Assembly (NCBI RefSeq): GCF_017744655.1
Contig: NZ_JAGIAW010000004.1
Coordinates: forward strand, 186,001-250,000
DNA length: 64,000 nt
Source of the DNA: Devosia sp.
GTDB lineage: Bacteria; Pseudomonadota; Alphaproteobacteria; Rhizobiales; Devosiaceae
Direction: 5' to 3'
The position numbers and the translations under genes are program-made. Shown here in pieces: positions 14,558-28,086 of this stretch. Position 1 is the first letter of the stretch. Every line of letters begins with the position of its first letter. The notes below the pieces were generated by a model. The model was not told the DNA's origin, ran no database searches, and saw only the letters and a list, made by a program, of their open reading frames with translations.

Positions 14558-16534
14558 TTACGGCTCTTCGTCAGGCTGGCCCCATTCCACGCCACTGATG
14601 ACGGCGACGCCGGTATCGCGGCGGCGGAGCCAGTTCACAGTGCGCTCAGCGCGGAAAGCCACGCTGTTGGTCTGGAACATCGACACAAGGTCCGTCGCCG
14701 TCGGCGTCACGCTGTCGTTGGTCGGGTTGTCCATCATCTGCAGCGAAGCTTCGGTGGACATGTCGACAGCAACTTCGCCATCGTCACCGAACCACACGTC
14801 CTGGGCGTTCTGCAGCGTCACGTTGGTGCCGGCATAGCTGGACGTAATCACCGGGAGGCCCATGAAGGTACCGCCATTGATGGTGATGCCGGGGAATTCC
14901 GGCTGGTCAAGCGCCGTACGCATCAACGAGAGCGACAGGGCGACGATCGTCGACATGATCCACACGCCAGAGGTGAGCGGGTTCTCGGCCGCCACAAACA
15001 CCGACATTGCCTTGCGCGCATCCTCACGGATTGCCGCAGCGTCATTGCCGCTCGACGGAATAGCGGTGATGCCATTGGTGATCGAGGCAGGCTTTACGCC
15101 GGCGGAGCCAGCATTCGCCGGATCGATATAGGCGGTGTCGATCGCGGCGACGATAGCCGCTGCCAGGTCGTCACGAAGCAGCATTTCAGCCGACGGCGAG
15201 CTGTCCCGCAGGGCTTCCATCGTGGCGACTGCGATGTTGGCGGCCTTGAGTGGATTGAGCTCGGTACGGCTCCAAGACGGCTTGGTCAGCGGCTTGGGCT
15301 TACCTTCCCCGACCCAGTAGCCGGTGGCGCCGCCGGTCTGACGGATCAGCGGAACACGGAAGGGCACGCGGCGAAGGGAAGGAATACCGCCCTGGCCAAA
15401 GCGCCCAACGATCGTCATCGGCCGGAGGAATTCAACGAAATCAGCAAAGCCGCCTTCGTTGCCGATCAGTGCAGTGTCGGTCGTGGTGTTGATGGCCGTC
15501 ACGGCCGCCTTGACGATGCCGACGAGGTCAGGGTCGCGGGTGCCGTAGTGCTGCTCCACCACGCCCATAAGATCCTGCCCGGTCTTGCGAGCGAGACCAA
15601 GGCAGCGGGCATAGCGGGCGAAGCGGATGCCGGGTTCGGGCTTTGCCGCCTTCACAACGACGCCGGCGCGGGCACTGGTTGCTTCAACGGTGTTGTTGCC
15701 CTGAGCCGGGGTAGCAGTAGCGGCCTGAGCCTTCTGCAGGGACTTCAGACGCTTGATGTCGGCGTCGATGGCAACGACTTCCTGTTCGAGGGTGTCGAAT
15801 TCCTGCTGTTCGGATTCGTCCGTGGAACGGTTTTCGTCGATGGACTTCTGCATCACGGTGGCCATTCGGGCCGCCTTGGTCGCGCGAGAAGCCTCAAGAG
15901 CAGTGATCTGCTCAGCGATGGTCTTCATTGTGGTGCCCTCCTTGGGGCGCAAATCAACGGGTTTGTGCGTTTTCCCCGAGGCGCCGGGGGCGGTATTCGA
16001 CGGACGCTCGGGGCGGCCAGACGCGGCCGGAGCGTTCGTGTCGAATTTCTTGATGAGCTCGAGGCCAGCGGCGTCGAGGTTCTTGAGGCTGGTGATGACC
16101 GCGTCGGGCTGCGCCGGGATGGTCACCGCGCTGAGCTCGTAAACTTCGGTCTTGATGAAGCGAATGCCGCCGTCGTCGATCCACGCATATTCGATGGCGC
16201 GGAAGCCGATGGACACCGCACGGACGAGATTGGCCTTGATCGACTGCCAAGCCTCTTCGATGCGGTCGCGCAATGCGCCTGCCTCTTCGATGATCGGCAA
16301 CTCGGCGGTGAAGGTGATGCCCTCCTCGGTCGGCTCATCGAACACGACGGTGCCGATCGGCTTGTCATGCATGTGCTGCCAGAGAAGCGGCAGCGGGTTC
16401 TTGAACGTCACCCCCATCGGCTCCACGATGTCGCCGACGCGGTCAACGGTCGGGGACGTGGCCACGCCGCGGATAATACGTTTCCCTTCCTCGACCGATT
16501 TCACGGTCAGGAGCGAATAGGCCCGGGACTTCAT
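14558..16534 (-). CDS. Fused prohead protease and major capsid protein
   Basis: One 658-aa reading frame. Residues 1-170 are a U35/S78-type HK97 prohead protease: GVATSPTVDRVGDIVEPMGV, catalytic His in LLWQHMHDKPIG (H54/H56) and Ser in NLVRAVSIGFRA (S108). Residues from about 203 are an HK97-fold capsid protein with a helical scaffold (delta-like) region (ALEASRATKAARMATVMQKS), then RRVPFRVPLIRQTGGATGYW, LPVITSSY and WFGDDGEVAVDMS. An internal ATG at 15928 (residue 203) has a perfect AAGGAGG at 15937-15943, 8 nt upstream, so a separate 456-aa capsid protein is probably also made. Protease-capsid fusions are known in some phages. It follows TerL. Confidence 0.92.
   Translation of the reverse strand: MKSRAYSLLTVKSVEEGKRIIRGVATSPTVDRVGDIVEPMGVTFKNPLPLLWQHMHDKPIGTVVFDEPTEEGITFTAELPIIEEAGALRDRIEEAWQSIKANLVRAVSIGFRAIEYAWIDDGGIRFIKTEVYELSAVTIPAQPDAVITSLKNLDAAGLELIKKFDTNAPAASGRPERPSNTAPGASGKTHKPVDLRPKEGTTMKTIAEQITALEASRATKAARMATVMQKSIDENRSTDESEQQEFDTLEQEVVAIDADIKRLKSLQKAQAATATPAQGNNTVEATSARAGVVVKAAKPEPGIRFARYARCLGLARKTGQDLMGVVEQHYGTRDPDLVGIVKAAVTAINTTTDTALIGNEGGFADFVEFLRPMTIVGRFGQGGIPSLRRVPFRVPLIRQTGGATGYWVGEGKPKPLTKPSWSRTELNPLKAANIAVATMEALRDSSPSAEMLLRDDLAAAIVAAIDTAYIDPANAGSAGVKPASITNGITAIPSSGNDAAAIREDARKAMSVFVAAENPLTSGVWIMSTIVALSLSLMRTALDQPEFPGITINGGTFMGLPVITSSYAGTNVTLQNAQDVWFGDDGEVAVDMSTEASLQMMDNPTNDSVTPTATDLVSMFQTNSVAFRAERTVNWLRRRDTGVAVISGVEWGQPDEEP
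15928..15943 (-). promoter_or_regulatory. Internal Shine-Dalgarno and ATG for stand-alone capsid
   Basis: AAGGAGG (15937-15943) lies 8 nt before an in-frame ATG (15926-15928) within the fused gene. It is the strongest ribosome binding site in the late operon and starts exactly at the protease/capsid boundary, before MKTIAEQITALEAS. Confidence 0.75.
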
Positions 16535-20554: not shown

Positions 20555-20580
20555 GATGGGGGCGGCTATCTGCCCCCATC
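20555..20580. terminator. Inverted repeat between convergent phage genes
   Basis: GATGGGGGC (20555-20563) and GCCCCCATC (20572-20580) form a 9-bp perfect stem with an 8-nt loop. It spans the ends of two convergent genes. There is no clear U-tract on either strand, so it may be an mRNA-stabilising or weak bidirectional termination element. Confidence 0.45.
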
Positions 20581-21141
20581 CCTGCTCTGCGTCGGCAGTG
20601 CCGCCAACTTGAAATGCACGGCCAACGCGTCGAGACCATCCATCAGCTGCCGGGTCGCACGCGCACGTGCGCGAGAACCGCCGCCCGCGATCGCCGAAAT
20701 CGACTGGTCATAGATCACCACACGCTCGACGATGCTCGATGACACCATGCCCAGGTGCTGCGAAGCGAAGCGGTATTCCCTGCGGGCATCCTCGCCAAAG
20801 TCAGCGTTGGCATTCGGTGACTGTCCTGAGGTGTCCACCCGAACGGCTGCGTAATCGGTCGCCCTCGCGCCGCCGAGCTGGGCACGCTCGTACAGTGAGC
20901 GGAACTTGGCCGCGGCCGCAATGCGAGGCTCGGTCTTTTCCTCGTCGCTGAAGCGGGCGAGGCCTCCGATCTTTTCGAGCATGTTCATGGCCACGCCCAC
21001 CTTTCCGACGTGCTCGCCCTTGTTGGTCTGGCGCTGGTGGAAATACTCAGCGTCCGTCATAGCCGGGTCGGGCACGAGCTGCGGCTGGATGATGCGTGGT
21101 TCGATCCATCGCGGCTTTTTCGATGTAAGCACTGCTCGCAT
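20566..21141 (-). CDS. DUF6456-like phage protein
   Basis: A 191-aa protein starting MRAVLTSKKPRWIEPRIIQP; the ATG at 21141 overlaps the stop of the small membrane-protein gene (TAATG). The C-terminal half has AAAAKFRSLYERAQLGGARA, REYRFASQHLGMVSSSIVER and LMDGLDALAVHFKL, matching the pattern of the DUF6456 domain found in alphaproteobacterial and phage proteins. It is the last gene of the early operon, the place where many phages encode a late-gene activator, and it lies just before the packaging genes. A regulatory role is plausible but not shown. Confidence 0.6.
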   Translation of the reverse strand: MRAVLTSKKPRWIEPRIIQPQLVPDPAMTDAEYFHQRQTNKGEHVGKVGVAMNMLEKIGGLARFSDEEKTEPRIAAAAKFRSLYERAQLGGARATDYAAVRVDTSGQSPNANADFGEDARREYRFASQHLGMVSSSIVERVVIYDQSISAIAGGGSRARARATRQLMDGLDALAVHFKLAALPTQSRDGGR

Positions 21142-21308
21142 TATGCTGCTCCCCTGCACGTTTTCAGGATCGCTGAAGTCGAGTACATGATCGCGGTGAC
21201 TAGATATGCCGCAGCTATCCGGATTTCGGACACCTCAGCAAAAACCGCGATGGTTGAGAGCACGAACATCAGCCTGGCCATCCAAAGCCACTTCCTATCC
21301 TCGCTCAT
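21141..21308 (-). CDS. Small two-helix membrane protein (55 aa)
   Basis: A 55-codon gene: MSEDRKWLWMARLMFVLSTI begins the first membrane helix (about residues 8-25), and IRIAAAYLVTAIMYSTSAIL the second (about residues 29-48), with a short KTCRGAA tail. Its ATG overlaps the stop of the ParB-like gene as ATGA, GAGGAAAGCGGC provides a ribosome binding site, and its TAA overlaps the next ATG as TAATG. Such tight coupling on both sides supports a real gene. The role is unknown: an inner-membrane superinfection-exclusion or anti-defence protein is possible. A holin seems less likely because it sits in the early operon. Confidence 0.7.
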   Translation of the reverse strand: MSEDRKWLWMARLMFVLSTIAVFAEVSEIRIAAAYLVTAIMYSTSAILKTCRGAA

Positions 21309-22084
21309 GCCGCTTTCCTCTTCTTCCGTGTCTTGCGGAACCAGACCGAGGCCAGCGCCCTGCCTGCCGCCATGCGGTGGGTCTTGGCGAATGCTTTGGC
21401 ATCGATCGCCATTTGCTCGTCGTTGCCGAACATGGCCTCTGCCAGCGCTTCACCTTCGACGTCGTGCCGGAACTCTTCGTCGGTCAGCAGGATTTCGCAG
21501 GCCTTGACGTGCTCGCCCTTGATCGGCGCCAGTTCGGCTTTGGCCAGCACCTGAAGGATTTCCCTTGCACGAATGACGCCACGGCCTTCCACGACCGCCC
21601 GAATGGCGCTGATGGCGATCGTCTGCCGAGGCGCATAGGCAGGGCCGGGATGTCGCATGATCGTCACACCGGCGCGCTGTACCACCTGGTCGATGGTTTG
21701 CGCATCTTCGTCTTCGGCCGCCAGTTCTGCCCAATAGCGATCCAGCTTGGAAATGTTCTTACGGTCGCGGTTGAGGGCGATGAAGTTGGCCGCTTCGCCC
21801 TTAGTCCCGGTGACGGCCACGATGATGGCCGGTACCAGTTCGATCAGCGGGTGCAGCTTTGCCGCCTCGAGGCGGTGCTGGCCGTCGGTGCAGTGGTATC
21901 GACCTGCATCGGTCTTAGCGACCACCACCGCGCCGAAGCTGGCCCATTCAAAGCCGTGCAGGATCTTGTTCACGCGGTGACGGTCGAGGCCGCGCTGATA
22001 GGTCGGGTCGATGTCGATCTGGTTCTTGTCGAGCCAGTCGATGACGGGTAGCTCACCCGGATCGCGAAAATCTGTCTCGGTCAT
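21305..22084 (-). CDS. ParB/Srx-fold nuclease-like protein (DUF6551-like)
   Basis: A 259-aa protein. Residues about 10-75 carry the ParB/Srx signature: IDPTYQRGLDRHRVNKILHG, FEWASFGAVVVAK and YHCTDGQHRLEAA, where DGQHR is the conserved catalytic or nucleotide-binding loop. The C-terminal two-thirds are helical (FIALNRDRKNISKLDRYWAE, AFAKTHRMAAGRALASVWF). The ATG at 22084 overlaps the upstream stop (TGATG). Proteins of this type occur in phage early regions and are annotated as DNA-binding or nicking proteins. It may act in replication or host DNA handling; not established. Confidence 0.72.
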   Translation of the reverse strand: MTETDFRDPGELPVIDWLDKNQIDIDPTYQRGLDRHRVNKILHGFEWASFGAVVVAKTDAGRYHCTDGQHRLEAAKLHPLIELVPAIIVAVTGTKGEAANFIALNRDRKNISKLDRYWAELAAEDEDAQTIDQVVQRAGVTIMRHPGPAYAPRQTIAISAIRAVVEGRGVIRAREILQVLAKAELAPIKGEHVKACEILLTDEEFRHDVEGEALAEAMFGNDEQMAIDAKAFAKTHRMAAGRALASVWFRKTRKKRKAA

Positions 22085-22356
22085 CACGCCGCTCCATCTG
22101 GGGATTTGACGATGTGGCGCCGGCAGATTTCTTCATCGACTATGTCGCAAAGGTTGGTGGCGGCAGGGCCGTAGCCGTAGCGGTCGTGAATGCGCTCCTC
22201 GACCGTCAAGAGCTGATCCACCGTCAGGCTTTCGAGCATTCCCGAAATCGTGCTGGTGACCTGCTGCATGGCCGCATCGGTGCGGTGGAAGAACACTGCC
22301 AGGTTGACGCTCTCCGCGCCGTCTCCGGTACGCACCGGCATGCTGATCACAGTCAT
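22084..22356 (-). CDS. Hypothetical early phage protein (90 aa)
   Basis: A 90-aa protein, MTVISMPVRTGDGAESVNLA, predominantly helical (AMQQVTSTISGMLESLTVDQ, LLTVEERIHDRYGYG), ending CDIVDEEICRRHIVKSPDGA. Overlaps both neighbours by 3-4 nt in the early operon, supporting expression. No family recognised. Confidence 0.55.
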   Translation of the reverse strand: MTVISMPVRTGDGAESVNLAVFFHRTDAAMQQVTSTISGMLESLTVDQLLTVEERIHDRYGYGPAATNLCDIVDEEICRRHIVKSPDGAA

Positions 22357-22940
22357 TCGGTTTCCTCCGGTTCACATTGGCAGTCGCCCTCGCACGCGCA
22401 TACGCGTGCACCCGCGCGAGGCTCTATGTTCACCTCAGTCGTTTCGGTGAAGTTGCCCAAGATGACGGAGAGGCGGGCCATGCTCGCCAGCCGTTCGGCC
22501 TCAGACACCGGTGGCGGCAGAGCTACCTGCTCGGCTTTTGCGACCTCTTCGGGCAGGAAGAACCAGCCGCGCTTGCCATGGCGCGTGCAGCTCACGAGGC
22601 TATGGTTGCCCTTGACGATTTCCATCTTGCGCCAGAGCTCGCTGTCGGCCTCGATGAAAATTCGGGCGGCCTCGTAGGCCTCAACCTTCAGGGCACCTTC
22701 GGCAATCTCGCAGCGCTCTGCCAGGGCGGGAGCAGAGGGGGCAAAATCCTTGTTCCGGTCGGGCACCTTGCCTTTTATGAAATCACGGCAGGCGCGGGTG
22801 ACTGCGGCGAGCGAATAGTCCTCGACGGCGAACAGGTATGCCATCGCACTATCGTCGGTCATGGTCGATTGTGAGGAAGGGAACGCCTTGAGCATCATCC
22901 CGATGATGGTCGTGGCTTGGGCGGCTTCGATCTGGTTCAT
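22353..22940 (-). CDS. Hypothetical early protein, possible replication accessory
   Basis: A 195-aa protein. The helical N-terminus (QIEAAQATTIIGMMLKAFPS, AMAYLFAVEDYSLAAVTRAC, RDFIKGKVPDRNKDFAPSAP) resembles proteins found next to phage replication initiators, such as helicase-loader-like proteins. It ends in a Cys-rich tail (VCACEGDCQCEPEETE) with four cysteines that could bind a metal. It starts 92 nt inside the preceding replication-like gene, an unusually long overlap. The function is inferred from context. Confidence 0.55.
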   Translation of the reverse strand: MNQIEAAQATTIIGMMLKAFPSSQSTMTDDSAMAYLFAVEDYSLAAVTRACRDFIKGKVPDRNKDFAPSAPALAERCEIAEGALKVEAYEAARIFIEADSELWRKMEIVKGNHSLVSCTRHGKRGWFFLPEEVAKAEQVALPPPVSEAERLASMARLSVILGNFTETTEVNIEPRAGARVCACEGDCQCEPEETE

Positions 22941-23688
22941 TGGTCAGTCTTTCGGCAAGGGACTTGAAGGGGTCATGACGCTGTTGCTGCTGACGCCCGG
23001 GTGGCGACCCACGTGCCTTCGGTTGGCGCTCAATGGCCCGTCGGACCCAATTCCGCCACGTGGCATCCCAATCAAGCTTGACCCCTTTGGCGCCAGGCTG
23101 TGAAATCCAATAGTCCCTGAAACTCGCTTTCTCGATTTCGACGACCGAGAGCGAAAGCCCTGCGCTGACAGCCCAGGCGAGATCAGGCTCAAAATCGCTA
23201 GGGAGACGTGTCCCACGGCTTTTGGAAGAACCGATAGGTTCTTCTTTTCTATCTGTATCTGTCTCTGTATCTGGGGGCGTCAGTTTGCCGTCACGTGACG
23301 TTGGAGTTACGTCACCAAGGGCCTGCTTACCGTCACTGCCAGCGACCGCTTGCCGTTTCCGCTCGCGATATCGAGCCTGACGCTCAGAGGATTTGTCCGA
23401 CTGGTACTGACGGTCGCCCCACTTGACCACACGGCCATCAGCCACACGCCCGGCATTGGCAAGCGCATCGAGTACAGCGCATATGTCAGCTTCATCCGCT
23501 CGGAGAAAATAAGCGGCTTCGGTTGCGTCGAAGTCGTATCGTCCGGCATCATCAATCTCCGATGCACTTTCAAGGATCGCTCCCCAAACCCACACCACGC
23601 GCTCTACCGGCTGACGCGACTTCACGGCGGCCGATACCAGCTTCTCGTCACGCATCATTCCGGTGTAATGGCGGAACCAGCGGCTCAT
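22849..23688 (-). CDS. Phage replication initiator-like protein
   Basis: A 279-aa protein. Residues 1-110 form a winged-helix-type domain with MSRWFRHYTGMMRDEKLVSA, VWVWGAILESASEIDDAGRY and VLDALANAGRVADGRVVKWG, QRQYQSD-type ending, as in phage replisome organizers (the DnaT/O-like group). A disordered linker (QALGDVTPTSRDGKLTPPDT) leads to a helical C-terminal domain with FRDYWISQPGAKGVKLDWDA and TWRNWVRRAIERQPKA, typical of DnaC/DnaD-like tails. The final 30 residues overlap the next gene and are His/Asp/Arg-rich. Likely binds the phage origin and recruits host helicase. Confidence 0.72.
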   Translation of the reverse strand: MSRWFRHYTGMMRDEKLVSAAVKSRQPVERVVWVWGAILESASEIDDAGRYDFDATEAAYFLRADEADICAVLDALANAGRVADGRVVKWGDRQYQSDKSSERQARYRERKRQAVAGSDGKQALGDVTPTSRDGKLTPPDTETDTDRKEEPIGSSKSRGTRLPSDFEPDLAWAVSAGLSLSVVEIEKASFRDYWISQPGAKGVKLDWDATWRNWVRRAIERQPKARGSPPGRQQQQRHDPFKSLAERLTNEPDRSRPSHDHHRDDAQGVPFLTIDHDRR

Positions 23689-24185: not shown

Positions 24186-24385
24186 GACAGCTCCCTCACG
24201 TCGCGGAACCCGACGAAGTCGTGCTTCCTGTTGACCTGGCGGGCCGCTGCCATCGCCGCCTCTTGGGTAGCGTGATAGTCGCCGATACGCTGCATAACCG
24301 GCCCTCGGGTGAAACCGAGGACGGCGTAACCCTCGTCCAGAAGCACGACGGAGACGCGCAGGAATGTTTGATCCTGGTCGGTCAT
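24182..24385 (-). CDS. Hypothetical early phage protein (67 aa)
   Basis: A 67-aa alpha/beta protein, MTDQDQTFLRVSVVLLDEGY, then VLGFTRGPVMQRIGDYHATQ, EAAMAAARQVNRKHDF. Overlaps both neighbours by ATGA. Unknown function. Confidence 0.5.
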   Translation of the reverse strand: MTDQDQTFLRVSVVLLDEGYAVLGFTRGPVMQRIGDYHATQEAAMAAARQVNRKHDFVGFRDVRELS

Positions 24386-24729
24386 TCCGCGACCTCCTCG
24401 CGGCCATGCACCGCCTCGTCGGCGTCCTTGAAGAACTTCTGAAGGGCAGGGTGCTGAGCCGGATCTACACCCATGCTTTCAAGCGCCGCGCTCCATTGGC
24501 CGGCGAGGATCAACGCGGATTCCAAAAGCCGCTGATTGACCGATTCTGGCTCTACCGGTGCGGGGTAGGCTGCCTCTAGTGCGATCACAATTGTCGAATT
24601 GATCGACTGCCTGTTGATGCTGGCGTGGCCTTTCACTCTGGCAGCGAGGTCACCCGGAAGCCGGAGCATGATCTTTGTGTAGAAATCGCTTGGAAAGCGT
24701 TTGGCTCGTCTGATGCCTGATGCGCTCAT
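24382..24729 (-). CDS. Arc-like ribbon-helix-helix DNA-binding protein
   Basis: A 115-aa protein; the ATG at 24729 overlaps the upstream stop as ATGA. Residues 8-55 fit the Arc family: RFPSDFYTKIMLRLPGDLAA, RVKGHASINRQSINSTIVIA, LEAAY, with the N-terminal strand KIMLRLP and the two helices that dimerise to hold operator DNA. The C-terminal 55 residues are helical (LLESALILAGQWSAALESMG). Probably a phage transcription regulator of early genes, comparable to P22 Arc/Mnt. It is the second RHH gene in the early operon. Confidence 0.75.
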   Translation of the reverse strand: MSASGIRRAKRFPSDFYTKIMLRLPGDLAARVKGHASINRQSINSTIVIALEAAYPAPVEPESVNQRLLESALILAGQWSAALESMGVDPAQHPALQKFFKDADEAVHGREEVAE

Positions 24730-24917
24730 GCCGCGCGCTCCTCGAAATAAGCCACCAGACGCTGGCGCGAGGCCACCCACCGCCCATTGACCTTTCGGCC
24801 GGGTAGTTCGCCCTTGGTGAGGGCGTATTTCGCTTGACCCTCCGTCAGACCGAGCACCTTGCCGATGGCTTCTGCGCCCCAGATGAGGTCGAGTGGTTCA
24901 GGACTAGTGGCTGTCAC
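24726..24917 (-). CDS. Small helix-turn-helix DNA-binding protein (excisionase-like)
   Basis: A 63-aa protein starting from GTG at 24917. It has the MerR/excisionase-type winged helix pattern IWGAEAIGKVLGLTEGQAKY, ALTKGELPGRKVNGRWVASR, QRLVAYFEERAA, with the typical 'G..WVA....L..Y' ending of HTH_17 proteins. It may act as a recombination directionality factor for the integrase or as a small regulator. Position in the early operon fits Xis. The ribosome binding site is weak. Confidence 0.7.
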   Translation of the reverse strand: MTATSPEPLDLIWGAEAIGKVLGLTEGQAKYALTKGELPGRKVNGRWVASRQRLVAYFEERAA

Positions 24918-25134
24918 GAGACACCGCCTGATGCAGCAGCTGCATCATGTCATGGATGGTTTCGGTGAGGCCGCTGGCAAGCTCGCAGAGCTGGGCCATA
25001 TCATTGCAGCGGAGACGATGATCGTAGGCTTCGTTCGTCTCGCTGAGACTGCGCGCGCCTTCTTCCATGGTGCGGAGCAACGCGGCCAACCGATAGGCGC
25101 AGCCGTCGGCGTGGGCGAAGTCTTGCTCAGTCAT
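24904..25134 (-). CDS. Hypothetical early phage protein (76 aa)
   Basis: A 76-aa helical protein, MTEQDFAHADGCAYRLAALL, with a heptad-like stretch (RTMEEGARSLSETNEAYDHR, ELASGLTETIHDMMQLLHQA) suggesting a coiled-coil or helical bundle. ATGA overlap with the upstream gene. Unknown function. Confidence 0.5.
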   Translation of the reverse strand: MTEQDFAHADGCAYRLAALLRTMEEGARSLSETNEAYDHRLRCNDMAQLCELASGLTETIHDMMQLLHQAVSRDSH

Positions 25135-25526
25135 GGCGACACCTGCGGACGCCGTGTGATGTCAGCAACTGACCGCATCCTCTCGATGCGGCCGTCGAGC
25201 CAGATACCGGAAGGCACGTAGCCGTCGATGCGAGCGAAAGCCAAGTCGCGAAGGTCTTCGTCGTCGCGGCTGAGGCCCATGCGGGAGGTGAGGTTCTTGG
25301 ACATGGCCAGCATTTCGGCGTCCACTTCTTCCTCGCGAGCCTCGGCCCACTCGAAGACTGCGGTGAAGCCATCGGCCTGGCCCATACAGGTGAGGTTGTA
25401 GAATTGCTTGATGCCGACCAGTGTCGTCAGGGCCAAGTAGATGTCGTAGACACTCATGGCCGAGTAGTTGCGACCAGACGTGCTTGCATCTCCGGCCGAG
25501 CCGGTGCTATTCTCTTTCGAGTTCAT
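25131..25526 (-). CDS. Hypothetical early phage protein (131 aa)
   Basis: A 131-aa protein with a Ser/Gly-rich start and a helical body (YDIYLALTTLVGIKQFYNLT, EWAEAREEEVDAEMLAMSKN, DEDLRDLAFARIDGYVPSGI). It is the second gene of the early operon, directly after the RHH gene. Not recognised; early-operon position suggests a host-takeover or regulatory function. Confidence 0.5.
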   Translation of the reverse strand: MNSKENSTGSAGDASTSGRNYSAMSVYDIYLALTTLVGIKQFYNLTCMGQADGFTAVFEWAEAREEEVDAEMLAMSKNLTSRMGLSRDDEDLRDLAFARIDGYVPSGIWLDGRIERMRSVADITRRPQVSP

Positions 25527-25540
25527 TGATCTAATCCTTG

Positions 25541-25747
25541 CTAGGGGTGGGTCAGTTGTTCCGGGTCCGGAAGCGCGCCAACGCTTGCCGGGCCTTTTTC
25601 ATTCTCAGATGCTAGACCGCGATTGATGAGGCTTCTCATCGCTGCAGCCCGCGAGCCGATACGGTTTGCGAACCGCCAGTTATCCAAGCGGTCGATCAGG
25701 CTCGGCTCGATCATGAGCTGAATTTTCGTGGACTTGGCCTCCGCCAT
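25541..25747 (-). CDS. Ribbon-helix-helix regulator, first gene of early operon (Cro-like position)
   Basis: A 68-aa protein. Residues 5-45 are an RHH domain: strand KIQLMIEP, helix SLIDRLDNWRFANR, turn IGS, helix RAAAMRSLINRGL. It resembles the N-terminal domain of the divergent plus-strand gene (FQMMMSP, DLDDWMFKNRV, RSRAEAIRRLC), so the two probably share ancestry and operators. ACGGAGGTTTTGA gives a perfect ribosome binding site. As first gene of the lytic operon it occupies the Cro position of a lambda-like switch. Function is inferred. Confidence 0.78.
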   Translation of the reverse strand: MAEAKSTKIQLMIEPSLIDRLDNWRFANRIGSRAAAMRSLINRGLASENEKGPASVGALPDPEQLTHP

Positions 25748-25886
25748 TCAAAACCTCCGTTAGTTCCGTCAGTAACGGGTTAACCATGGCCATTGACCAT
25801 TCGTTCGTCAAGTGCAAACTAACTGAACTTCCGTCTATTGACGTACATATGGAGTTTTTTGGATATTGCGGGGGCAGGAGCACCCA
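25748..25886. promoter_or_regulatory. Divergent switch region between two RHH genes
   Basis: A 139-bp AT-rich intergenic region. It contains CGTTA/TAACG (25758-25762 and 25773-25777), GTTAGTT (25759-25765) with its inverted copy AACTAAC (25817-25823), and TTGAC/GTCAA (25793-25797 and 25806-25810). A plus-strand promoter candidate is TTGACG (25838-25843) with GATATT (25862-25867, spacing 18). These repeats are good candidates for RHH operators. Confidence 0.65.
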
Positions 25887-26402
25887 ATGGCTGACGACAA
25901 AAAGACCTTAAAATTTCAGATGATGATGTCGCCGGCCGAGGCGCGAGATCTCGACGACTGGATGTTCAAGAACCGCGTTCGGTCCCGAGCCGAAGCCATT
26001 CGTCGGCTATGTTCCATCGGTATTGGCGCGGAAGAAGCGATACTTCCAGACGTGCTGTCGCACCTTCATAGCCTTATTGATCAGCTCGAGGTCTTCGCCG
26101 AAGAGCAGATCGATCTATACGCAAACATTAGAGACGAGGGCCGTCAGGACAATCCCGACCTGAAGCGGGCTTTCCTCTTGTCGGTCGACCAACTGATGGA
26201 GCTATTGGATCAGGTCGAGTATTTGAGGCTCAATGTTCAAGAGCAGGCTCATGCCGTCGAGCAGATCAAGGCGCAGCGTTCGACAATGAATTCGAACATC
26301 GAACACTTCTCTCGCCAGATAGAGATCCAGCGCAACAAAATCCGGGACCGCTTGATTGCAAGAGGCTACAGCACTGAACCCCAGAAGGGCGAGGACGAAT
26401 GA
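25887..26402 (+). CDS. RHH repressor-like protein with coiled-coil tail
   Basis: A 171-aa protein. The ATG at 25887 follows GGCAGGAGCACCC. Residues 6-50 form an RHH domain (KTLKFQMMMSPAEARDLDDW, MFKNRVRSRAEAIRRLCSIG) related to that of the divergent early gene. Residues about 60-160 are predicted coiled coil (SLIDQLEVFAEEQIDLYANI, MELLDQVEYLRLNVQEQAHA, RQIEIQRNKIRDRLIARGY), probably for oligomerisation. It is co-transcribed with the integrase (ATGA overlap at 26399), the arrangement expected for a lysogeny repressor. Known phage RHH repressors (Arc, Mnt) are far shorter and lack this coil. Repressor role is inferred. Confidence 0.75.
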   Translation: MADDKKTLKFQMMMSPAEARDLDDWMFKNRVRSRAEAIRRLCSIGIGAEEAILPDVLSHLHSLIDQLEVFAEEQIDLYANIRDEGRQDNPDLKRAFLLSVDQLMELLDQVEYLRLNVQEQAHAVEQIKAQRSTMNSNIEHFSRQIEIQRNKIRDRLIARGYSTEPQKGEDE

Positions 26403-27628
26403 GTGTCCGCAAGCGCACCTGGACGACCAACGGTGTCGAGAAATCCGGCTGGGTCGCCGACTACAAAGATGCCAACGGTAAGCGCCAGCGCCAGACATTC
26501 CGCCTGAAGAAGGAAGCCGAGACTTTTCTGCTCAAGGCTCAGTCCGAAGTGCGTGACGGCGTGCATGTGCCGGACGCGGACACCATCACGGTGGAAGAGG
26601 CGGGAAAGCTCTGGATTAAATCGGGGGAGGCGGCAGGGCTCGAGCGCGGGACAATCGTCCAGCGCCGGCAGCACCTTGACCTGCACATCGTCCCGTTCGT
26701 CGGAGCCGTCCGGTTGAACAAGGGCACTGTTCCCTGGGTGCGGAGCTTTCAGGAGAAATTGCGCGACGAGGGCCGGTCACCGGCCATGGTGAAGATCGTG
26801 ACAGTGTCGCTGGGCAGCATCTTCGCCGATGCGCAGGACAGGGGCCTTACCGTCCGCAATCCCGTTCACGAACGATCGCGGGCGCGCTCCACCGCTCGGT
26901 CGAGCGAGAAGCGGGCGAAGGCACGTCTTCAGGTGGGGGTTGATATTCCGGCGCCGCACGAGGTCAAGGCGCTGATTGGCGCTGCGGAGGGGCGGTGGCG
27001 CCCTCTGCTGATGACGGCCGTGTTCACCGGCATGCGCTCTTCGGAGCTGCGGGCGCTCACGTGGGCGGCCGTGGATCTCGATTCGAAGATGATCCATGTG
27101 CGCGAGCGTGCGGACGCCTTCAACGATGTTGGCCGACCGAAGAGCGAAGCAGGTGACCGCTCAATCCCGATTCCTCCAATCGTGGCGAATACGCTGCGCG
27201 AGTGGAAGCTGTCTTGCCCGCGTCGGGATAGCGGGCGGAAAGATGCGCAGGGCGAGGCCATCCGAGAATTGTACCTGGTCTTTCCGAACGGGCAGGGCAA
27301 CATCGAGAACAAGGGAAACATTTCCAAGCGCGGCTTGATCCCGACGATGATCGCCGCTGGCGTCACGGTGCCCACCGACAAACTCGACAAGGATGGCAAG
27401 CCAGTTCTGGCGGCCAGATATACGGGCATGCATGCGCTTCGGCACTTCTATGCGTCTTGGTGCATCAATCCGGTTTCGGCAGGAGGGCAGGGGCTGTCGC
27501 CGAAGGTCGTTCAGGAGCGCATGGGGCACTCGACGATCGGCATGACGATGGACACTTACGGCCATCTCTTCCCTGCTGATGATCATGCCGACCTGCTCGC
27601 TGCGGCGGAGAAATCCTTGCTCGGCTAA
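26399..27628 (+). CDS. int: Tyrosine-type site-specific integrase
   Basis: A 409-aa phage integrase that inserts and excises the prophage. The N-terminal arm-binding region (GWVADYKDANGKRQRQTFRL) and core-binding domain (about residues 65-150) precede the catalytic domain. Catalytic residues are visible: R213 in FTGMRSSELRAL, K249 in RPKSEAGDRS, H345 and R348 in MHALRHFYASW, H377 in MGHSTIGMTM and Y387 in DTYGHLFP. Its ATG overlaps the RHH gene. It lies beside the tRNA-Arg remnant used as att site and two tandem GATGGCACAT repeats that may be arm sites. Length and motifs are complete, so it is probably active. Confidence 0.95.
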   Translation: MSVRKRTWTTNGVEKSGWVADYKDANGKRQRQTFRLKKEAETFLLKAQSEVRDGVHVPDADTITVEEAGKLWIKSGEAAGLERGTIVQRRQHLDLHIVPFVGAVRLNKGTVPWVRSFQEKLRDEGRSPAMVKIVTVSLGSIFADAQDRGLTVRNPVHERSRARSTARSSEKRAKARLQVGVDIPAPHEVKALIGAAEGRWRPLLMTAVFTGMRSSELRALTWAAVDLDSKMIHVRERADAFNDVGRPKSEAGDRSIPIPPIVANTLREWKLSCPRRDSGRKDAQGEAIRELYLVFPNGQGNIENKGNISKRGLIPTMIAAGVTVPTDKLDKDGKPVLAARYTGMHALRHFYASWCINPVSAGGQGLSPKVVQERMGHSTIGMTMDTYGHLFPADDHADLLAAAEKSLLG

Positions 27629-27687: not shown

Positions 27688-27740
27688 ACCCCAGACTACG
27701 AATCTGGGGGTCAGGAGTTCGAATCTCTTCGGGCGCGCCA
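27688..27740 (+). tRNA. 3' remnant of tRNA-Arg(ACG): prophage att site
   Basis: The sequence from CCAGA CTACGAA TCTGG onward is an anticodon stem-loop with anticodon ACG, followed by the variable loop, a T arm (AGGAGTTCGAATCTCT) and acceptor end CGGGCGCG with encoded CCA (27738-27740). The expected 5' half (GCGCCCGTAGCTC) is absent: bases to the left belong to the phage. This is the duplicated 3' end of a tRNA gene used as attachment site, so the intact tRNA-Arg should lie at the other prophage end, beyond position 1. The fragment itself cannot be a working tRNA. Confidence 0.85.
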
Positions 27741-28086
27741 TTTCTTTTCAGGTATTTTTGTTGGCAGAGCAACTGAACGCTTCGTCTGCGAGCTAGTTTG
27801 CGGACGGGACCGACAGCATGTCCGCGACTTTTTTACCGATCGCCCTGGCTAAGTGCAATCGTGGATCGGGAGCCGAGGTGGACGCCGTCGATGAGCGAGG
27901 CGTCGGCCGCGGTCGCGGCACCAGGAAGGCGCAATGGGTCTTTGGGCCAATTGCCCGTTTGGATTCTGCGATGCTTCTTCCGGCTTTGGCGGGGCGCCAT
28001 TGGCGAGGTTGCGCAGGTGGGGTGGGGCGATGACGGGGATGGCAGACCAGACAGTTCCAGCGCTGCCTTAGTCGAGACGGCAGGCT
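27741..28086. other. Intergenic stretch right of the prophage
   Basis: About 345 bases of chromosomal DNA between the att site and the response regulator stop. Short open frames occur on both strands, but none has a ribosome binding site together with a recognisable protein. I see no RNA gene, repeat or terminator with good support here. Confidence 0.4.

Follow-up and report, generated by a model that had tools for sequence, protein, structure and literature searches.

Can a temperate phage take its lysis-lysogeny decision with two repressors of the ribbon-helix-helix (RHH) class? The question is raised by a prophage in the 64,000-nucleotide stretch of Devosia sp. contig NZ_JAGIAW010000004.1 analysed here (hereafter the window), where two divergent genes, a short one (S) and a long one (L), start from either side of a common spacer at the early/lysogenic boundary. 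We propose, with a probability of roughly 0.57 and on sequence evidence, that S and L bind the same operators in this spacer and form the switch of the prophage, as a pair of the Mnt/Arc type using the shared-operator logic of CI/Cro. The start of L is taken at ATG 25887, while the mechanical open reading frame (ORF) begins at TTG 25866. The elements are:

25541..25747, minus strand: S, short partner, 68 aa, RHH-like, predicted Arc/Cro-like role
25748-25886: S/L spacer, 139 bp
25887..26402, plus strand: L, long partner, 171 aa, RHH-like, its C-terminal part of some 120 residues helical, predicted Mnt/CI-like role
26399..27628, plus strand: tyrosine integrase, PF00589 (E 1.7e-12), with a 4-nt overlap with L

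Two related RHH-like proteins

The original prediction held that the divergent genes are related RHH genes, and the alignment bears out their common ancestry. S and L share 24 of 60 residues (BLASTP, E 1e-11) and both match phrog_4738, annotated as 'transcriptional repressor' (S, E 3.5e-10; L, E 1.6e-4); because of this alignment and the common match, the homology is not a product of chance. Structure prediction, suggested at the time as a check, was run on monomers and gave RHH-like helices in S and a helical tail in L. The S model (pLDDT 77) has helices at residues 15-27 and 33-50, at the positions expected of an RHH protein, and its leading PDB neighbours in Foldseek are mostly RHH proteins (NikR, probability 0.99; Arc, 0.82; CopG; AmrZ), with E-values of 0.18 or worse for this short chain. 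A profile search with S matched NikR at E 0.029. The RHH strand is absent from both models, since these are monomers and the strand pairs only in the dimer. Both proteins are nonetheless predicted to adopt the strand-helix-helix arrangement of the RHH fold.

The model of L (pLDDT 83) has helices at 16-28, 34-83, 90-129 and 134-158, of which the last three are the long helices predicted for the C-terminal part, where a coiled coil of roughly 100 residues had been noted. The 50 PDB matches listed for the L model are generic helical bundles, and no RHH relative of the C-terminal part appeared in the homologue alignment, the model or the fold search. An alignment of 30 L homologues, picked from 83, shows near invariance over the first 46 residues and a remainder that is barely alignable; one of the 83 (P0035) carries a precomputed PF27050 label that a Pfam rescan did not reproduce. 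Neither S nor L matched PF03869 or PF11423 at E<=1, and the members searched matched no Pfam or NCBIfam family above cut-off, apart from the Arc-type pair of locus L058. No helix-turn-helix (HTH) fold was found for S or L in Pfam, the S model or Foldseek, and L holds no S24 domain. A protein search with S returned only itself, and tblastn with four queries against 50,697 phage records found nothing.

Divergent pairs were sought, as had been suggested, in one genome collection, in viral contigs and in whole genomes of the family, order and class (alphaproteobacterial), and 38 distinct S/L pairs were found, 11 of them first in genomes and the other 27 in viral contigs; loci of relatives are cited below by L numbers. 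This count covers all loci at that stage minus two reference stretches, and the same set contained 73 distinct RHH genes at loci that lacked a pair. Later scans added two new pairs, and 27 of the 56 loci they yielded lacked a divergent partner. A tree of the helices parts S from L in 74 of 74 cases and, by this measure, the two are paralogues that separated long ago.

Several RHH genes were seen outside such pairs. Single RHH genes of about 70-115 aa (RLQIML..EL...DD.RF..RMPSRAAAVREL) occur at L031-L051, L059-L067 and similar loci; many genomes of the order carry this family with RMPSRAAAVREL, as do some from the class, and it might be a host relative of the phage pair. At L009 (5917-6798) three RHH genes lie on one strand, the first with a KFQMMM strand of the window type, and at L222, L223, L227, L228 and L230-L232 RHH-bearing ORFs of 250-329 aa have no short divergent partner.

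Predicted operators and matched strands

If S and L act on the same DNA, the spacer should carry sites for both. Across the spacers, direct repeats at 9-bp spacing number 112 versus 18 in the lag test, which was used in place of the longest-shared-word test, a weak one on single spacers. In the window the half-sites at this spacing are CCGT (25757), CCGT (25766) and ACGG (25775) on the S side, and ACTG (25822) and CCGT (25831) on the L side. The 139-bp length first given for the spacer stands; its 'several inverted repeats' stand in part, as three imperfect pairs, and the 9-bp-spaced half-sites are the clearer signal. The predicted control elements are:

25756..25778: O_S, predicted operator, CCGT/CCGT/ACGG at 9-bp spacing, with the predicted leftward promoter on one side of it and the start codon of S on the other
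25806..25811, minus strand: TTGACG, -35 element of the predicted leftward promoter P_S
25822..25834: O_L, predicted operator, ACTG/CCGT at 9-bp spacing, abutting the -35 of the predicted L promoter
25838..25867, plus strand: P_L, predicted promoter TTGACG-18-GATATT (consensus scan 9/12; 0.2 expected in the scanned stretch)

With up to three mismatches allowed, the O_S pattern has one match in the 64-kb window, exact and at O_S itself, versus 0 expected. The O_L pattern has one match outside the spacer, with three mismatches, at 14683, and its total is below the 15.7 expected; an ACGG/CCGT counterpart of O_L is found at L001, L002, L003 and L007. The consensus scan reported no leftward promoter in the scanned stretch, and a leftward TTGAC is present in 31 of 35 thinned spacers versus 9.4 expected. 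Operator words fall into at least four classes: TTCCGT, TTCCAT, TTGTGCAA and GTTTACCA.

The residues predicted to face the DNA from the strand are K8 (b1), Q10 (b3) and M12 (b5) in S, and K9, Q11 and M13 at the corresponding places in L. Position b3 is identical between partners in 29 of 37 pairs versus 10.8 after permutation. It is at b1 and b3 that partners chiefly agree; in the same 37 pairs, inward strand residues show no significant excess and the helices a marginal one. Since the predicted DNA-facing residues match so far above chance, S and L likely recognise the same sites on DNA. A recent duplication or gene conversion was rejected as a source of the strand likeness, because the helices split S and L fully and are hardly closer within loci.

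Partners could also resemble each other through descent, with S and L as independent autorepressors that each have their own operator. They are co-inherited, helix identities correlate across loci (r 0.30), operator similarity also tracks helix similarity, a Mantel test comparing operator with strand could not tell binding apart from descent, and under the finest within-clade shuffles the partner match is no longer significant. However, the match falls mainly on b1 and b3 and not on inward residues, coarser within-clade shuffles retain it, and the same words stand in both spacer halves (KQ, 6 of 7 loci; RP, 8 of 10; RV, 3 of 5), so we regard independent autorepression as very improbable. A further point against it comes from L058, in the genus of the host, where S and L both match PF03869 Arc (E 2.3e-11 and 1.4e-16; the Arc-bearing pair lies at 896-1180 and 1171-1920, with L098 listed alongside). 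In the long partner of L058 the L profile still matches behind the Arc domain, at positions 19-149, and helices of the older RHH are retained there; the short partner keeps the tail, KGPASVEALP for KGPASVGALP in the window. In this single case the DNA-reading part seems to have been exchanged in both partners.

A shared operator offers a reason for such parallel change: as both proteins have to recognise a single site, the DNA-facing residues and the operator would, on our proposal, change together. We extend this, tentatively and at somewhat less than even odds, to the phage group as a whole, which may run its entire lysis-lysogeny decision on two ancient RHH paralogues with shared operators, an RHH counterpart of CI/Cro in which strands and half-sites shift in step with each other, one concerted replacement of both domains included, and from which an RHH recognition code could be read. 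Most of the approximately 40 natural pairs match at the predicted DNA-facing residues, across the operator word classes, and make two questions testable: in what way bases are specified by an RHH strand, and by what route a switch of two repressors can shift its specificity while keeping both partners.

Primary switch or second module

In the proposed switch, L would form oligomers through its helical C-terminal part and, in the lysogen, occupy O_S and keep S and the early operon off. On O_L, next to the -35 of its own promoter, it may tune or activate L and the integrase gene. After infection or induction, S, which is without the C-terminal part, would take the same sites and lower the synthesis of L and integrase; later it would damp its own operon. 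The surrounding genes are:

27691..27743, plus strand: right att copy, 53-bp direct repeat of the tRNA-Arg(ACG) 3' end
G000:C9:183103-183155: left att copy, with tRNA-Arg(ACG) itself at G000:C9:183076-183152
25131..25526, minus strand: first gene after S, 131 aa, begins MNSKENSTG, no Pfam or PHROG match
24726..24917, minus strand: 63-aa HTH_17-like protein of excisionase-like size, S operon, PF12728 at E 0.0014, below cut-off
24382..24729, minus strand: third RHH, Arc-like, S operon, phrog_3178 'Arc-like DNA binding domain' at E 6.2e-5, start set at an internal ATG
22849..23688, minus strand: replication/primosomal-type protein, phrog_3992 at E 1.3e-16

The att copies mark the prophage ends, lie 30,588 bp apart and enclose genes for terminase, portal, tail-fibre and tape-measure proteins. 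Leftward from S follow the 131-aa gene, a 76-aa gene, the HTH_17-like gene, the Arc-like RHH gene and the replication/primosomal-type gene; because the last lies in the same leftward run, S can be taken as the leading gene of the early operon; the original prediction had it heading the lytic operon. The third RHH gene that it listed at 24382 is likewise present, with an E-value of 0.066, below cut-off, against Pfam Arc.

The pair might instead mainly govern integration and excision, with L and integrase co-expressed, S switching the integrase off and lysogeny kept by other means. The 4-nt overlap confirms locally the coupling of L to integrase that had been claimed, and at L023 and L055, as in the window, L is followed on its own strand by an integrase. 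As a general rule the coupling does not hold, since at L003/L008 the integrase is on the strand opposite to L. Together with the place of S at the head of an operon encoding a replication-type protein, this makes integration control improbable as the main role.

Greater weight falls to a second possibility, that the pair serves as a secondary immunity module like immI of phage P22, in which a Mnt-like L represses an operon led by an Arc-like S and the true lysogeny repressor is another protein. The longest ORF starting at most 350 nt past S, or an earlier pick, was compared with Pfam in the 38 loci, and an antirepressor-family gene (Rha, ORF6N or KilAC, above cut-off) lies on the S side in 14 of them. 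It lies at most 350 nt from S in 13 (L017, L025, L053, L054, L083, L102, L104, L105, L108, L109, L115, L123 and L133), and at L116 an ORF6N gene is 897 nt away. HTH_3 matches occur in 20 of 29 viral records, 18 of them above cut-off, and several are arranged as a 220-256-aa ORF with a small divergent ORF; L002/L006 and L003/L008 each have one small HTH_3 ORF. These antirepressors and HTH genes, like the outcome of the finest shuffles, count against the pair as primary switch, and the P22 mnt/arc/ant layout lends the secondary role a model. To judge from these matches, the pair is a second module in many relatives.

The window itself differs. The gene after S matches no family there, none of its early genes searched matched an antirepressor family in Pfam or PHROG, and no antirepressor match came from any of the six loci whose strand reads KFQMMM (the window, L001, L002, L003, L007 and L023), although the picks for L002 and L023 are perhaps not the true next gene. 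A separate HTH repressor had been named as the finding that would overturn the original prediction. No HTH_3 (six frames, E<=1) and no Peptidase_S24 (E<=0.1) were found in the window's prophage, other HTH families lying outside the six-frame scan. The 37-kb record of L007 has neither HTH_3 nor S24, and HTH_3 was found neither in the 100 kb next to the L023 pair on its phage side, away from the integrase, nor on the L058 contig (E<=0.01). Since the prophage shows neither an antirepressor beside S nor HTH_3 or S24, the S/L pair is, at the level of sequence families, the only candidate switch found in it. For the window we therefore hold a secondary role to be unlikely, and prefer the S/L pair as the switch.

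A toxin-antitoxin reading was set aside, with no toxin family in the scanned ORFs adjoining S. The gene after S differs in family between loci yet keeps a conserved start: its first codons contain AATA(G/C)CAC in frame in 12 of 35 loci versus 0.2 expected, and the string MNSKENSTG recurs in the gene after S of L098. Across the S stop codon a GC-rich inverted repeat was read by eye at L110, L111, L119, L121, L136 and L137; T's follow it in most loci, resembling an intrinsic terminator or attenuator. The early region of the window also encodes a DUF6456 protein (20566-21159; PF20057 above cut-off), possibly a further regulator, and a ParB-like/DUF6551 protein (21305-22087). In records with no PF00589 match, the S side carries ORFs of 532-539 aa (L010, L013, L102, L108, L109 and L135) that are perhaps serine integrases.

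Comparison with known systems

Lambda CI and Cro, divergent repressors at the early/lysogenic boundary, compete for operators that they share. The cI/Cro-like layout first proposed for the window holds as to the divergent RHH-like pair and the boundary position, and a shared-operator logic is likely; the layout has an RHH precedent, since P22 mnt and arc are already divergent Arc-family genes. S and L differ from CI and Cro in being predicted RHH rather than HTH proteins, in the absence of S24 from L, and in predicted operators made of 4-bp half-sites at 9-bp spacing.

CopG, NikR and AmrZ are sequence and fold neighbours of S. RHH regulators of this type are known as single regulators, not as a divergent switch of two paralogues, and they differ from the window pair also in that no RHH relative was found for the C-terminal part of L. 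AmrZ reads DNA through alternate strand residues; for the contact residues of NikR, a literature search listed no relevant paper.

An RHH repressor pair is already known in Mnt and Arc of P22, and among the open-access PMC papers listed in literature searches, judged by titles and the openings of abstracts, none describes a divergent RHH pair as a primary switch. In P22, Mnt acts as the repressor of arc and ant, Arc as that of mnt, and immI is secondary to immC (PMC11016777); its layout of an antirepressor with an HTH-type second region resembles many of the relatives (PMC11016777, PMC8022706). Like the S/L pair, immI has divergent homologous short and long RHH genes, the short one of 53 aa and the long one with a C-terminal Mnt domain, and it shares the antirepressor with the 14 loci above, a place held in the window by the 131-aa gene. 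The differences are several. P22 Mnt matches both PF03869 and PF11423 and Arc matches PF03869 (5e-31 and 4e-30 for the P22 controls against PF03869, which both L058 partners also match), whereas S and L of the window match neither; Arc and Mnt are unlike at b1 (Q/H); a separate operator for each is annotated between mnt and arc, whereas here the strands of the partners match in most pairs; and a second immunity region of the C2/Cro-type HTH kind was not seen in the window's prophage within the HTH_3 and S24 scans described above. With these differences, P22 immI (Mnt/Arc), and not CI/Cro alone, is the closest precedent for the S/L pair.
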